From positions 1 to 24,776 of the IMG/VR virus record IMGVR_UViG_3300013372_002862: a stretch of 24,776 nucleotides of DNA, one strand, 5' to 3'. Numbering within the stretch: the stretch's first letter is position 1; the number at the start of each line of letters is the position of its first letter. The position numbers and the translations under genes are program-made. The stretch comes from a virus. A model generated the notes under the pieces. The model saw only the letters and a program-made list of their open reading frames with translations, had not been told where the DNA came from and made no database searches. This document shows positions 11,367-16,046 of the stretch, one piece after another.

Positions 11367-13660
11367 GCAACGGAACAAAAGTCGTTAAAAGAGATGGTCA
11401 AACTGAGCCTCTTGATTTAAATAAACTCCATATTATGGTTGAAGAAGCCTGCAAAGATTTAGCAGGAGTATCGGCATCTCAGGTAGAAATGCAATCAGGA
11501 ATTCAGTTTTATGATGGCATTACCACTGCAGAGATTCAGGAGATCCTGGTACGCTCTGCCAGCGACCTTATCAGCTTAGAGAACCCCAATTATCAATTCG
11601 TCGCTGCCCGCCTACTTCTGTTCGCTCTCCGCAAGCAGTTGTTTGGTCGTATGCATGAATGCCCAACAGTTAAGCAGCACGTCCTCCGTGCCGTCGAGAG
11701 AGGCGTCTATGATGCAGAGATTCTTGACCTGTATACTGATGAGGAATTTGAAAAACTCGAGTCCTTTATTGATCACAGTCGTGACTATTTGTTTACTTAC
11801 GCTGGTTTACGTCAAGTTGTAGATAAGTATCTTGTACAAGATAGAAGTTCTAATGAACTTTATGAAACACCGCAGTTTATGTATCTTTTGATTTCTGCAA
11901 CTATCTTTTCAAAATATCCAAAAGAAACACGTTTAGATTACGTTAAAAAGTATTATGACGCAATCAGCAAACACAAAATCAACATCCCAACGCCAATCAT
12001 GGCAGGAGTGCGAACTCCGCTTAGACAATATGCTAGCTGTGTCCTTGTTGACGTTGATGACACCCTCGATAGTATCTTTAGCAGTGATATGGCTATTGGC
12101 AGATACGTTGCACAGAGGGCGGGGATCGGCATCAACGCTGGTCGAATCCGTGGCATCAACGCTAAAATTAGAGGGGGAGAAGTTCAACACACGGGTGTTG
12201 TACCATTTCTCAAGAAGTTTGAAGCAACTGTCAGATGTTGCACGCAAAATGGCATACGAGGTGGATCCGCGACAGTACACTTCCCCATCTGGCACCAAGA
12301 AATAGAGGATATTCTAGTATTAAAAAATAACAAAGGAACCGAAGATAATCGTGTTCGCAAGTTAGATTACTCTATTCAAATTAGTAAGTTGTTCTATGAA
12401 CGATTCATCCGTAACGAAGAAATCTCTCTCTTCTCTCCACATGCTGTTCCTGGTCTGTATGATGCTTTTGGCACTGGTGGATTTGACGAGTTATATGTTC
12501 GTTATGAACAAGATGAGTCTATTCCAAGAAAAACTATCGGAGCTCAAGAACTCTTTCTGGACCTCCTGAAAGAACGTGCTGAAACTGGTCGTGTTTATAT
12601 CATGAACATTGATCATTGCAACTCTCACTCATCTTTTATGGATAAGGTTGAGATGAGCAATCTGTGCCAGGAAATCACTCTTCCAACGAAACCCATTCAA
12701 CACATTGATGATCCTGATGGTGAGATTGCTCTTTGCATTCTTTCTGCCATCAATGTTGGTAAACTTAAAACAATGGATGAACTGGAAACTCTTTGTGACC
12801 TTTCGGTTCGTTCTTTGGATGAATTGATTGATTTTCAGGGATATCCCGTCAGAGCGGCAGAACTCGCCACCAGAGCACGTCGTTCACTTGGAGTAGGATT
12901 TATTGGTCTGGCACATTATCTCGCCAAACATGGGGAGAATTACAATGATTCTGGTGCCTGGAAATTAGTTCATGATTTGACTGAGGCATTTCAATATTAT
13001 TTGATTCAAGCAACTGTCAATCTTGCAAAAGAAAAAGGCCCTTGTGAGTATAGTAACCGAACCAAATATGGCAATGGAATTCTCCCCATTGATACATACA
13101 AGAAGGACGTTGATGAAATAGTTTCTAATGAGCTCAGGTATGATTGGGAGCATCTTAGAGAGCAGGTACTCAAATATGGGGTACGGAACTCAACATTGTC
13201 CGCACAGATGCCATCGGAGAGCAGTTCCGTTGTGTCAAATGCAACCAACGGAATCGAACCACCTAGAGGATACTTGTCCATTAAGAAGTCAAAGAAAGGA
13301 CCACTCAAACAGATTGTTCCCCAATATCAGACTCTTAAAAACAATTATACGCTGCTCTGGGATATGCCTAGCAATCGTGGTTATATTCATATTGTTGCAG
13401 TTATGCAAAAATTCTTTGATCAGGCGATTTCTGGAAACTGGTCCTATAATCCAGAAAATTATCCAGACAATGAAGTTCCTACTTCAGTAATGGCACAAGA
13501 CCTTTTGACTACATATAAGTACGGTTGGAAAACCAGCTATTATCAAAACACATATGATGCAAAGACTGATGAAGTAGAAGATTCCAAACCATCTCTCACT
13601 GATTTAGTCAATGATATTTTAAATACGGAGGAAGAAGATTGTGAGTCTTGTAAGATTTAA
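11363..13660 (+). CDS. nrdA: Ribonucleoside-diphosphate reductase class Ia, alpha subunit (NrdA)
   Basis: The large subunit reduces ribonucleoside diphosphates to deoxyribonucleotides for phage DNA synthesis, using the radical from NrdB. The 765-aa product matches E. coli NrdA length. It has an N-terminal ATP-cone-like region (VVKRDGQTEPLDLNKLH). The active-site cysteines are C226 (YASCVLV, E. coli C225), C435 and E437 (NLCQE, C439/E441) and C458 (ALCILS, C462). The radical-transfer tyrosine pair is in TSYYQNT, and the redox tail is C760-x2-C763. The N-terminal third contains patches clearly richer in GC than the rest. It starts in an ATGA overlap with gp61. Confidence 0.97.
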   Translation: MSNGTKVVKRDGQTEPLDLNKLHIMVEEACKDLAGVSASQVEMQSGIQFYDGITTAEIQEILVRSASDLISLENPNYQFVAARLLLFALRKQLFGRMHECPTVKQHVLRAVERGVYDAEILDLYTDEEFEKLESFIDHSRDYLFTYAGLRQVVDKYLVQDRSSNELYETPQFMYLLISATIFSKYPKETRLDYVKKYYDAISKHKINIPTPIMAGVRTPLRQYASCVLVDVDDTLDSIFSSDMAIGRYVAQRAGIGINAGRIRGINAKIRGGEVQHTGVVPFLKKFEATVRCCTQNGIRGGSATVHFPIWHQEIEDILVLKNNKGTEDNRVRKLDYSIQISKLFYERFIRNEEISLFSPHAVPGLYDAFGTGGFDELYVRYEQDESIPRKTIGAQELFLDLLKERAETGRVYIMNIDHCNSHSSFMDKVEMSNLCQEITLPTKPIQHIDDPDGEIALCILSAINVGKLKTMDELETLCDLSVRSLDELIDFQGYPVRAAELATRARRSLGVGFIGLAHYLAKHGENYNDSGAWKLVHDLTEAFQYYLIQATVNLAKEKGPCEYSNRTKYGNGILPIDTYKKDVDEIVSNELRYDWEHLREQVLKYGVRNSTLSAQMPSESSSVVSNATNGIEPPRGYLSIKKSKKGPLKQIVPQYQTLKNNYTLLWDMPSNRGYIHIVAVMQKFFDQAISGNWSYNPENYPDNEVPTSVMAQDLLTTYKYGWKTSYYQNTYDAKTDEVEDSKPSLTDLVNDILNTEEEDCESCKI

Positions 13661-13682
13661 AACCAAACTAGAGGAGAAACCA

Positions 13683-14825
13683 ATGGTCGAATCAATGACC
13701 GTTTTTAACTCTGAGGAAGTTGATACTAAAAAACAACCAATGTTTTTTGGAAAACCACTAGGAATACAAAGATACGATTCTTACAAGTATCCAATTTTTG
13801 ATAAACTTACAACTCAACAACTAGGATATTTTTGGAGACCCGAAGAGGTTTCTTTACAAAAAGATAGGGCAGACTATCAAACGCTTCGCCCAGAGCAGAA
13901 GCATATTTTTACCAGCAACTTGAAGTATCAGGTTATGCTGGATTCCGTTCAGGGTCGTGGTCCTGGTATGGCATTTGCTCCATACTGTTCCCTCCCTGAA
14001 CTGGAAGCATGTATGAAAGTATGGGAGTTTATGGAGATGATCCATTCTCGTTCATACACCTATATCATTAAAAACGTTTATTCGGACCCATCTGAAGTCT
14101 TTGATACTATCCTTAAAGAGGATCGTATTATGGAACGTGCCACGAGTGTTACTCAGGCATATAACGATTTTATTAATAGTGCCCATCATTATGATAATAC
14201 AAATGAGTGGGTTCACGCTTTGGAACAAGTACCATACGCACAAGAGGCAAGGTATGAACTCAAACGAAAACTTTTCAGAGCAGTTGCAAACGTTAATATT
14301 CTTGAAGGTATTCGCTTTTACGTCAGCTTCGCTTGTAGTTTTGCGTTTGGCGAACTCAAGCTTATGGAGGGAAGTGCAAAGATCATCTCACTGATTGCTC
14401 GTGATGAAAACCAGCATTTAGTTATTACCCAAAACATTTTAAATAAGTGGAAAGAAGGTGATGATCCAGAAATGGTAAGTATCTCCAAAGAAGAAGAACA
14501 ATGGTTTTATAAAACCTTTGACAATGCCGTAAATCAAGAAAAACTTTGGGCAGAATATTTGTTCAAAGATGGTTCGATGATTGGTTTGAATGACAAATTG
14601 CTACAACAGTATGTTGAATGGATTGCAAATCGTAGAATGAAAGCAATTGGACTCAAACCGCTTTATGATATTTCTGCAAAAAATAATCCACTTCCTTGGA
14701 CTGAGCATTGGATTTCCTCTAAAGGTCTTCAAGTGGCACCACAGCAAACGCAAGTGCAGTCATATATTGTTGGTGGTATTAAGCAGGATGTTACCAAAGA
14801 CTCTTTTGCTGGGTTCCAGTTGTGA
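13683..14825 (+). CDS. nrdB: Ribonucleoside-diphosphate reductase class Ia, beta subunit (NrdB)
   Basis: The small subunit holds the diiron-tyrosyl radical cofactor used by NrdA. The ATG at 13683 has a strong AGGAG six nt upstream, giving 381 aa (T4 388), and is preferred over an in-frame GTG at 13641 inside nrdA. The E. coli ligands are recognisable: the Asp in MLDSVQGR (D84), Glu and His in EFMEMIHSRSY (E115, H118), the radical Tyr in HSRSYTYII (Y122), the Glu closing FACSFAFGE (E204), and Glu/His in IARDENQHL (E238, H241). It ends directly against a sigma70 promoter and a homing endonuclease gene. Confidence 0.97.
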   Translation: MVESMTVFNSEEVDTKKQPMFFGKPLGIQRYDSYKYPIFDKLTTQQLGYFWRPEEVSLQKDRADYQTLRPEQKHIFTSNLKYQVMLDSVQGRGPGMAFAPYCSLPELEACMKVWEFMEMIHSRSYTYIIKNVYSDPSEVFDTILKEDRIMERATSVTQAYNDFINSAHHYDNTNEWVHALEQVPYAQEARYELKRKLFRAVANVNILEGIRFYVSFACSFAFGELKLMEGSAKIISLIARDENQHLVITQNILNKWKEGDDPEMVSISKEEEQWFYKTFDNAVNQEKLWAEYLFKDGSMIGLNDKLLQQYVEWIANRRMKAIGLKPLYDISAKNNPLPWTEHWISSKGLQVAPQQTQVQSYIVGGIKQDVTKDSFAGFQL

Positions 14826-14854
14826 TTGACATTAAGACTGAAATAGTGTATTAT
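14826..14854 (+). promoter_or_regulatory. Sigma70-type promoter TTGACA-N17-TATTAT before the homing endonuclease
   Basis: TTGACA (14826-14831) and TATTAT (14849-14854) are spaced by exactly 17 bp, starting one base after the nrdB stop. Transcription would start near 14861, downstream of the 5' arm of the leader inverted repeat. Confidence 0.7.
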
Positions 14855-14884
14855 ATAAATAATAATAGGTAAGTTCAGTCTTAA
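14832..14884 (+). promoter_or_regulatory. 11-bp inverted repeat enclosing promoters and ribosome-binding site
   Basis: TTAAGACTGAA (14832-14842) and TTCAGTCTTAA (14874-14884) are perfect inverted copies around a 31-nt loop. The second arm ends one base before the ATG at 14886. The loop holds the sigma70 -10 element, the TATAAATA late promoter and the only Shine-Dalgarno-like AGG (14867-14869). Transcripts read through from nrdB would fold the hairpin over the start; transcripts begun at either local promoter would lack the 5' arm. This parallels the leader of I-TevI in phage T4. Confidence 0.7.
14854..14861 (+). promoter_or_regulatory. T4-type late promoter TATAAATA
   Basis: A perfect late-promoter core 25 nt before the homing endonuclease ATG, overlapping the last base of the sigma70 -10 element. 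Expected start is near 14867, inside the loop of the inverted repeat. Confidence 0.75.
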
Positions 14885-14885
14885 A

Positions 14886-15500
14886 ATGAATAATTATATT
14901 CTTTACTACTACTTAAGGGAGGACTTTTGTTCTCCCTTTTATGTTGGTTATGGTCGTCCAAGAAGGATTAATTCTAGACATTCTAGAAGAAATGGTGCGG
15001 AACTTTTACCACCCAAAGAAAGAAGATGGGTTGTTAAATCTGGTTTATCTAAAGAAGAAGCAATAGAACTTGAGATAAAACATATTGCACTTTGGAAAAG
15101 AGAGTGTGATGGTGGAGTTTTATTGAATCAAAATCTTGGTGGGGAGGGGAAACCTAGAGGACAAAAAACAAAAGGATTTTCTGGAAGAAAGCATAGCGAA
15201 GAAGCAAAGAAAAGAATAAGTGAAAAGGTTGCTGGTAAAAATAATCCAAGATATGGAATTAAACTTTCGCAAGAAATAAAAACTAAAATAAGTCAAAATA
15301 GAACTCCACAGTTTGGGAAAGATAATCCAAACTCTAAAACTTGGAAAATTACTTCTCCAGAAAATAAAGAATATGTTATTGTTGGTGGATTGAAAGAGTT
15401 TTGCAAATCTCAAAATATTTCTTATGCCACTATGAACGCGGCAATACTTTATGAAAGAAAAGGACCGAGAAAAAATGGATGGTCAATTGAGAAAATTTAG
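14886..15500 (+). CDS. GIY-YIG homing endonuclease with NUMOD3 repeats (Seg-like)
   Basis: A 204-aa free-standing homing endonuclease of the T4 Seg/I-TevI type, which cuts phage DNA lacking the gene and spreads by repair. The GIY-YIG core lies in residues 4-90: YYY at 7-9 in the GIY place, YVG at 19-21 in the YIG place, R26/R27, the catalytic Glu in EEAIELEIKHIALW (about E63), and LLNQNLGGEGKP. Two NUMOD3-like DNA-binding motifs follow (GFSGRKHSEEAKKRISEK, then GIKLSQEIKTKIS). The C-terminal 50 residues form a NUMOD1/helix-turn-helix-like domain (WKITSPENKEYVIVGGLKEF). It sits directly behind nrdB, a common homing target. The start region is controlled by an unusual hairpin leader. Confidence 0.93.
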   Translation: MNNYILYYYLREDFCSPFYVGYGRPRRINSRHSRRNGAELLPPKERRWVVKSGLSKEEAIELEIKHIALWKRECDGGVLLNQNLGGEGKPRGQKTKGFSGRKHSEEAKKRISEKVAGKNNPRYGIKLSQEIKTKISQNRTPQFGKDNPNSKTWKITSPENKEYVIVGGLKEFCKSQNISYATMNAAILYERKGPRKNGWSIEKI

Positions 15501-15888
15501 AATATCACTACCTGAAGATGAGTGTGTGATAAAACTTCAGGAGTATTGTAATTTCTCCTCTACTTTATTAAAAGTTCCAGTTATTAAAAAACCATTATGT
15601 ATTGATGCAAACTGTCACAATAATGTAAATTATTATGTGAAAACTTATGGTGGGAAAAAAATAAGTGGTTATTATTTGATTACAGATACTGAAGATGTGA
15701 CTTATGGATGTGCAATATATCATAGTATTTGGAAGAACACTTATGGAGATTTGGTAGATATAACTCCATTTGAAGATGGTAGAGAATATAATATTTTTTC
15801 CGTGATGAATACTACAGAATATTACTCTGGGGTTGCATATGATGGAGAAAGATATAAATTATTAGAACCAGGACTTAACATAATCTAA
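15475..15888 (+). CDS. Hypothetical protein with possible Cys-His-Asp site (137 aa)
   Basis: The ATG at 15475 has AGGA ten nt upstream and overlaps the endonuclease gene by 26 nt; an in-frame ATG at 15451 is less likely. The product has no family name I know. Conserved-looking positions fall in the order of a papain/transglutaminase-like thiol hydrolase: C42 and C47-H48 (LCIDANCHNNVNYY), GYYL at 65-68, H83 (IYHSIWKN) and D95 (GDLVDITPF). That reading is inference; the motifs could also bind a metal. It shares TAATG with the next small gene. Confidence 0.8.
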   Translation: MDGQLRKFRISLPEDECVIKLQEYCNFSSTLLKVPVIKKPLCIDANCHNNVNYYVKTYGGKKISGYYLITDTEDVTYGCAIYHSIWKNTYGDLVDITPFEDGREYNIFSVMNTTEYYSGVAYDGERYKLLEPGLNII

Positions 15889-16046
15889 TGTCACAAAAGA
15901 CACTTTTTCAGGATTCCAACTTTGAATGGGATAAAAATAAGATAATAGATGCTTATAAAAAAGCAGCAGAGTATGATGATTTCTTATTTGGAGATTTTGA
16001 TTATTCTGATATTTGGTTAAAAGAAAATGAAAAAGAGGGTCAATGA
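15888..16046 (+). CDS. Small acidic hypothetical protein (52 aa)
   Basis: A 52-residue acidic protein (MSQKTLFQDSNFEWDKNKII at the start, FGDFDYSDIW in the middle). Its ATG overlaps the stop of the gene upstream (TAATG), and its TGA stop falls inside the terminator hairpin at 16031-16055. No function or family is recognised. It ends the transcription unit that begins with the homing endonuclease. Confidence 0.75.
   Translation: MSQKTLFQDSNFEWDKNKIIDAYKKAAEYDDFLFGDFDYSDIWLKENEKEGQ

Follow-up and report, generated by a model that had tools for sequence, protein, structure and literature searches.

A homing endonuclease gene that sits behind nrdB in the genome of a cyanobacterial virus is preceded by a hairpin leader that probably works in the manner of the T4 I-TevI and Aeh1 mobE hairpin leaders: RNA reading through from upstream would be silent, and late RNA started inside the leader would be translated. 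The window (the whole stretch of DNA that was analysed, 24,776 bases in length) carries this leader within a mobile cassette, and selfish endonuclease genes more generally appear to bring their own silencers along. The arms of the hairpin, its promoter box, their conservation, the compensatory change between the arms and the absence of the leader from empty sites are read directly from the sequences compared. The transcript starts and the translational repression are steps that we infer. The relevant elements are:

13641–14825, + strand: nrdB, ribonucleotide reductase small subunit (Pfam PF00268, E 1e-54; ORF)
14823–14825, + strand: nrdB stop codon TGA; nrdB is the host gene 5' of the inserted cassette
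14826–14831, + strand: TTGACA, -35-like (sequence)
14832–14842, + strand: 5' arm, TTAAGACTGAA (inverted repeat, folding, covariation)
14849–14854, + strand: TATTAT, -10-like, 17 nt from TTGACA (sequence)
14854–14861, + strand: TATAAATA, T4-type late promoter box in the hairpin loop (sequence, conservation)
14867–14869, + strand: AGG, Shine-Dalgarno proposed in the initial annotation (16 nt from the ATG, not conserved)
14874–14884, + strand: 3' arm, TTCAGTCTTAA, the stretch just before the AUG (folding, predicted accessibility)
14886–15500, + strand: GIY-YIG homing endonuclease gene, 204 aa, with NUMOD3 (PF07460, E 4.6e-10; phrog_314)
15451–15888, + strand: 145-aa ORF overlapping the endonuclease 3' end (ORF; within the stretch absent at the S-SRM01 empty site)
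15888–16046, + strand: 52-aa gene (homologue directly after nrdB in S-SRM01)

The 5' arm begins 6 nt past the nrdB stop and is perfectly complementary, over 11 bp, to the 3' arm; a single A lies between the end of the latter (14884) and the endonuclease ATG at 14886. These coordinates confirm the initial annotation, which had described an 11-bp perfect inverted repeat around a late promoter with one arm ending one base before the ATG. No other exact 11-bp inverted repeat with a loop of 20–45 nt occurs in the window. The TTGACA and TATTAT elements, with their 17-nt spacer, give a sigma70 score of 11/12.

In the proposed account, RNA made by read-through from nrdB would hold both arms and fold into the hairpin, which would close the 12 nt before the AUG, so that little endonuclease would be made early. 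Late RNA would begin within the loop at TATAAATA, without the 5' arm, and would be translated. The helix may act by blocking 30S loading at a start region that is poor in Shine-Dalgarno sequence; unlike in T4, the Shine-Dalgarno is not conserved.

Predicted folding agrees with this account in part. For RNA of positions 14826–14900 the predicted folding energy is -15.6 kcal/mol (z -3.48; none of 200 shuffles does as well), and RNA that starts at 14861 or 14867 is not unusually structured (z +0.7); this is the comparison with and without the 5' arm suggested when the leader was first described. The excess falls as the flanks are lengthened, to z -2.54 for 14820–14920 and z -1.46 for 14780–14920. 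A start-region helix that requires upstream sequence, as in the T4-type hairpin leader, is thus present, and the late promoter is so placed that late RNA, from its presumed start sites, would lack the 5' arm. The 12 nt before the AUG have a mean unpaired probability of 0.07 in the read-through RNA versus 0.56 in the late-start RNA, and are less accessible in the read-through form in 39 of 40 distinct leaders. The AUG triplet itself goes the opposite way (0.58 unpaired in read-through and 0.43 in late RNA, across the 40 distinct leaders), and no consensus Shine-Dalgarno lies sequestered about 8 nt from the AUG. In these predictions the hairpin would hide the 12 nt ahead of the AUG, but neither the AUG nor a conserved Shine-Dalgarno. 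In late RNA from the window, the unpaired fraction of the 3' arm depends on the 3' end chosen: 0.21 when folded to 14930, and 0.6 when folded to 14990.

A scan of IMG/VR yielded relatives of the endonuclease gene, of which the best 80 of 109 were kept; together with the window these give 81 leaders. An nrdB-like C-terminus precedes the leader in all 81. The box TATAAATA is exact in 79 (the other two have one change each), and a continuous helix with a score of at least 22 surrounds the late box in 79, the helix being broken in L018 and L038. An alignment of 38 distinct leaders has 90.4% of its cells paired, and two-sided changes—those that alter both partners of a pair—are found at 7 of 16 pairs, in 23 cells. 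Shuffles give 3.6 pairs and 8.0 cells, with 0 of 500 reaching either observed value, and controls with a slid structure give at most 3 pairs and at most 15 cells. The count of further pair types in these 38 leaders is unremarkable: 39 of 500 shuffles reach it. The initial annotation's pairing of a hairpin with a late promoter is accordingly conserved, and the compensatory changes whose absence would have spoken against it are present. Two other elements that it named fared less well. A sigma70 -10 element does exist in the window, as TATTAT, but the TTGACN-17-TATWAT pair is found in only 56 of the 81 leaders, and a sigma70 promoter was rejected as a core part of the leader. The Shine-Dalgarno proposed in the loop was likewise rejected as a conserved element: AGG is found no more than 20 nt from the start in 41 of the 81, and AGG, GGA and GAG are all absent from that interval in 33 of 81.

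The gene behind the leader encodes a protein of 204 aa that matches phrog_314 ('homing endonuclease', E 2.7e-15); its Pfam search gave no GIY-YIG hit and a PDB sequence search gave no hit. In an alignment of 23 related proteins, Y7, Y19, G21, R27, E63 and N81 are invariant, and we take Y7, Y19, R27, E63 and N81 to be the GIY-YIG catalytic positions, with residue roles assigned after I-TevI. The downstream 145-aa ORF has a weak phrog_37148 match only. It was found in two of four other contigs with a window-type endonuclease (G003 and G006), and was not found in G004 and G005, where the endonuclease is a short form. Within the first endonuclease codons, at 14915–14938, lies a 10-bp stem with five G-C pairs followed by a T-rich stretch, which looks like an intrinsic terminator; by reading, G001 has something similar.

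An empty insertion site is provided by S-SRM01, in which a homologue of the 52-aa gene (57% over 35 aa, tblastn E 8e-8) comes immediately after nrdB; S-SKS1 has a weak match to the same gene (E 0.015). It follows that the leader, the endonuclease gene and the 145-aa ORF make up the inserted stretch. nrdB was located in 13 of 13 genomes examined, and a hairpin follows it only in G001 and G002, both of them IMG/VR genomes that carry the window-type gene. The 11 named genomes without the insertion have no such leader behind nrdB: five lack any late box within 260 nt of nrdB, and in the remaining six the best helix around a late box near nrdB scores 12–18. This comparison of sites with and without the gene, proposed alongside the original description, indicates that the leader arrived with the cassette. 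A mobile cassette of leader, GIY-YIG homing endonuclease gene and 145-aa ORF therefore sits behind nrdB, with cleavage and homing as putative activities. A second GIY-YIG-like family (about 244 aa; L082, L108, L111 and others) was seen, by reading, to have a compact hairpin leader behind an nrdB-like end, and the two endonuclease families seem to compete for one nrdB site.

The same layout precedes other endonuclease genes. A pattern scan with the arm fixed as ACTGAA found it before three further families, at no fewer than 16, 7 and 3 loci beside at least 32 of the window family; that these families share an arm reflects the analyst's choice of pattern. One member of each further family matches phrog_314 or HNH endonuclease families, and 60 of 118 loci among the ACTGAA matches listed lie outside the four families. 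An arm-free scan was made of seven cyanophage genomes, covering 237 NATAAATA sites that have an ORF no more than 50 nt away; it seeks the 3' arm only between the late box and the start, and expected counts come from 20 swaps of upstream regions. Helix scores of at least 24 were observed at 17 sites versus 0.8 expected, of at least 30 at 9 versus 0, and of at least 18 at 39 versus 20.5. Because Pfam gives little for these endonucleases (8 of the 20 top ORFs have a hit that reaches the family cut-off), PHROGs was used instead. At scores of at least 22, 16 of 20 ORFs match a PHROGs endonuclease family, and two more are identified by BLAST (L236:16059, 52% to L259; L237:17663, 63% over 98 aa to L249). 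Homing-endonuclease-like ORFs thus number 18 of 20 at these scores versus 17 of 208 below (phmmer), in seven genomes that are rich in endonucleases because five were chosen for holding a relative of the gene. Two of the 17 lower-scoring ORFs are extended forms of genes in the top set, and a few further endonuclease hits appear in the PHROGs lists for the 208 lower ORFs; Fisher's p is 3e-15 with 17 lower-scoring endonucleases, and 4e-13 if 25 are assumed. The two non-endonuclease high scorers, L247:17685-17978 (B23; 98 aa, phrog_4134) and L226:694-1929 (DSL-LC03; 412 aa, unmatched), are either chance or further users of the design.

In a second set of 210 late-box sites, scores of at least 22 were counted for each genome against expectation: G001 has 8 of 45 (0.25 expected), G002 4 of 35 (0.3), the window 1 of 8 (0.15), S-PM2 2 of 33 (0.85), S-CRM01 1 of 30 (0.4) and Klebsiella phage Miro 2 of 22 (0.3). 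T4 has no genome-wide excess, with 0 of 37 sites at this score and 0.95 expected. Some genomes use the hairpin-late-promoter design often, but not every genome does. Among the eight of G001, five match endonuclease families, one belongs to the window family and two are not endonucleases. The scan also recovers the T4 gene e leader, with a score of 19. The T4 sites that score 20 belong to the divergent genes 26/51, where two Shine-Dalgarno-like stretches mirror each other.

By reading, 12 of the 18 endonuclease leaders from the seven-genome scan have a long loop. Leaders of this terminator type were collected with three endonuclease queries, the first represented by its best 80 of 297, giving 136 loci (L444, L450, L456, L464 and L465, whose matches do not start near residue 1, were left out by hand, and three more were too short). 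The 136 loci contain 92 distinct leaders, 85 with and 7 without the late box, which are related to one another, so that counts made on them are of non-independent events. The helix score is at least 18 in 82 of the 92 and at least 22 in 78, and a terminator lies between the arms in 79 of the 82. Each unit has the order (i) late-type box P1, (ii) a few bases, (iii) stem-loop, (iv) terminator, (v) TATAAATA (P2), (vi) target arm and (vii) ATG; the antisense arm consists of the loop and the 5' strand of the stem-loop. In 77 of the 79, a P1 box ([AC]TAAATA) stands 6–13 nt ahead of the arm, versus 5 of 479 windows further upstream. Its sequence is NATAAATA in 55 of the 77 and CTAAATA, with C as second base, in the other 22; that all P1 boxes are promoters is presumed from their sequence. 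The end of P1 is 52–76 nt from the start of P2, P2 is 2–5 nt from the target, and the target is 5–16 nt from the ATG (24 in one leader). A first folding test, which asked for the arm in a hairpin loop, gave no signal (21 of 79 versus 174 of 790 shuffles). The terminator finder often removed the 3' strand of the stem; with a direct stem score in its place, a local stem scoring at least 12 is found in 54 of 77 leaders versus 10.9 by shuffling. The MA01 gene, which is 42% identical to the window's endonuclease, carries a full terminator-type unit, which places the compact and terminator types within one endonuclease lineage. On one contig, two endonuclease genes (L356 and L381) share one and the same antisense arm, AGTTGACTGCA, and could therefore silence each other.

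The two types of leader together bear on how the window's repeat should be read. It could be a DNA operator, a repeat that binds the endonuclease itself or another protein and shuts the late promoter between its half-sites; as I-TevI binds an operator over its own late promoter in autorepression (PMC2988022, in the portion consulted), such a role would have a precedent, and the arm sequence GACTGAA is, in its own right, well conserved across the window family. Mismatches in the core helix of that family are 6 G-U and 6 A-C, so the window family alone does not separate RNA pairing from a DNA palindrome. The terminator-type leaders do: across 54 distinct arm pairs the mismatches are 18 G-U, 1 A-C and 11 others (p 8e-5; the set was picked with a G-U-tolerant score, after which a Watson-Crick seed score of 16 was required), which is not expected of a DNA palindrome and points to pairing in RNA of the coding strand. 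Related leaders also rewrite their arms wholesale and keep complementarity, with 52 distinct arms among the 79 terminator-type leaders. We consider a DNA operator unlikely on these grounds.

Still less probable is an element of the nrdB 3' end, in which the hairpin would protect or process the nrdB message and have no role for the endonuclease. Such an element would suit a 5' arm that starts so close behind the nrdB stop, but none of the 11 named genomes that lack the insertion has the hairpin after nrdB, and late-promoter helices also precede endonucleases that lie behind other genes (S-CREM2, MA01, B23). That the repeat arose by chance and has no function is hardly credible: repeats of this kind can arise in AT-rich DNA, and when the local 200 bases are shuffled by mononucleotide, 5 of 2000 shuffles produce one, yet the helix is kept in nearly all of the 81 leaders, with compensatory change. 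The preferred reading is therefore still that of a T4-type hairpin leader acting through RNA.

A blind search for terminator-type units was made in 13 genomes, combining [AC]TAAATA, a terminator, and NATAAATA 45–80 nt further on (a range set after measuring the known units), with neither complementarity nor gene type required. It returned 14 units, and all 14 have an antisense match to the next start region with a score of at least 21. Twelve precede a gene with a PHROGs endonuclease match (for S-CREM2 L208, a partial HNH match only), and the genes behind the other two resemble endonucleases (L236:16059, and MA01 L219, phmmer E 8e-20 to L249). For the six units of S-SRM01 and the four of G001, 10 of 10 arms pair best with their own target, at -19 to -25 kcal/mol versus -5 to -18 for the others.

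These units raise the prospect, which we regard as evenly balanced, that many free-standing homing endonuclease genes of T4-like cyanophages travel with their own antisense small-RNA gene, the window's leader being a stripped cis form. P1 would make an RNA of about 50–65 nt whose stem-loop exposes 8–17 nt complementary to the start region of the next mRNA; the intrinsic terminator would close the small RNA, and the endonuclease mRNA would start at P2, a few bases on, beginning with the target. Small RNA and target would be rewritten together, giving each endonuclease a private silencer, in keeping with the 10 of 10 arms that pair best with their own target. Such an RNA could also work in trans, in the way of plasmid copy-control RNAs, against the same gene of a co-infecting phage. 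The combination of P1, stem-loop and terminator has no easy explanation unless a short antisense RNA is made separately. A purely cis-acting leader is nonetheless conceivable, although we incline slightly against it: the terminator would stop most read-through, the long helix would silence the rest, and P1 would simply be the ancestral promoter of the site. This scheme calls for no additional RNA and agrees with the compact type seen in the window; by reading, the stop of the upstream frame often overlaps P1, and the 22 CTAAATA boxes depart from the NATAAATA consensus. Against it, P1 keeps its fixed place before the arm even though the upstream sequences (by reading) differ, which argues that P1 belongs to the unit, and the local stem that presents the arm would compete with the cis helix.

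Hairpin leaders are on record for T4 I-TevI, I-TevII, I-TevIII and segB, and for Aeh1 mobE (PMC2988022, PMC3014915). As far as the consulted portions of these sources go, the window's leader shares with them a homing endonuclease gene, a start-region helix formed only in upstream-initiated RNA, and a late promoter so placed that late RNA lacks the 5' arm; mobE and I-TevIII are also found at nrd genes, like the window's endonuclease. The cyanophage leaders differ in that the helix is without a conserved Shine-Dalgarno, the arms lie on both sides of the late promoter, and the design is found upstream of genes of GIY-YIG, HNH and endonuclease VII type alike. For T4 or Aeh1 leaders, the same portions of PMC2988022 and PMC3014915 mention no variant with P1 and terminator. 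The T4 gene e leader resembles the window's in having a late promoter beside a helix that closes the start region (PMC3014915, as consulted). It differs in that its gene is not an endonuclease, its helix is short and it has no terminator type.

Parallels to the terminator-type units are found among phage RNAs. The c4 antisense RNA of phages P1 and P7 (Rfam RF01695) lies on the same strand as its target and directly upstream of it, and pairs with the translation start region; it regulates icd/ant, in temperate phages, and arises by processing of a common transcript. The terminator-type leaders likewise have their antisense sequence on the same strand, directly upstream of the target start region, and unlike c4 they have a late-promoter box and their own terminator. 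c4 is cited in PMC2864571 and PMC12197685. CfrI of cyanophage S-PM2, an RNA of about 225 nt antisense to a homing endonuclease gene and psbA, comes from a T4-like cyanophage and is likewise associated with a homing endonuclease gene; in the excerpts consulted (PMC2984593, PMC12197685) it is not described as a tandem promoter-terminator unit. PeSL cassettes also place a promoter and stem-loop between genes of T4-like phages (PMC4503421, in the part consulted); they have early promoters and are tied to gene shuffling, whereas the units described here are flanked by late-type boxes and match, in antisense, the start of the next gene. CfrI apart, a search of largely open-access literature, by titles and the openings of abstracts, showed among the papers listed no precedent for a cyanophage endonuclease leader of hairpin or antisense type.

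Early silencing of homing endonucleases would, on this account, be a recognisable cyanophage design that extends beyond a few T4 examples. GIY-YIG, HNH and endonuclease VII types share it, and other late-promoter genes in the seven genomes hardly use it. The units of the terminator type offer a sequence signature for finding new homing endonucleases, and they would imply a large number of phage small RNAs not yet annotated, whose individual targets are known. If such RNAs act in trans, one selfish gene could exclude another during co-infection.

Some further features were noted at individual loci. An HNH gene (846-1253) in L227:684-1318 of DSL-LC03 has a compact leader within a tRNA cluster; its 5' arm adjoins an apparent 5' tRNA fragment, and its 3' end overlaps tRNA-Thr by 6 nt. 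In S-SRM01, an HNH endonuclease with a hairpin leader of score 21 (L235:13079-13495) lies, by reading, directly after a tRNA-like 3' end, which is reminiscent of T4 segB in the tRNA region. An Rfam search of seven loci (140,000 bases, several with terminator-type leaders) gave 21 matches at the gathering score; no family matches the unit, and c4 (RF01695) is not among the 21. The 211-kb contig of G001, which carries the window-type gene, has matches to the Rfam wcaG and abiF RNAs at L325:5801-5898 and 13559-13595.
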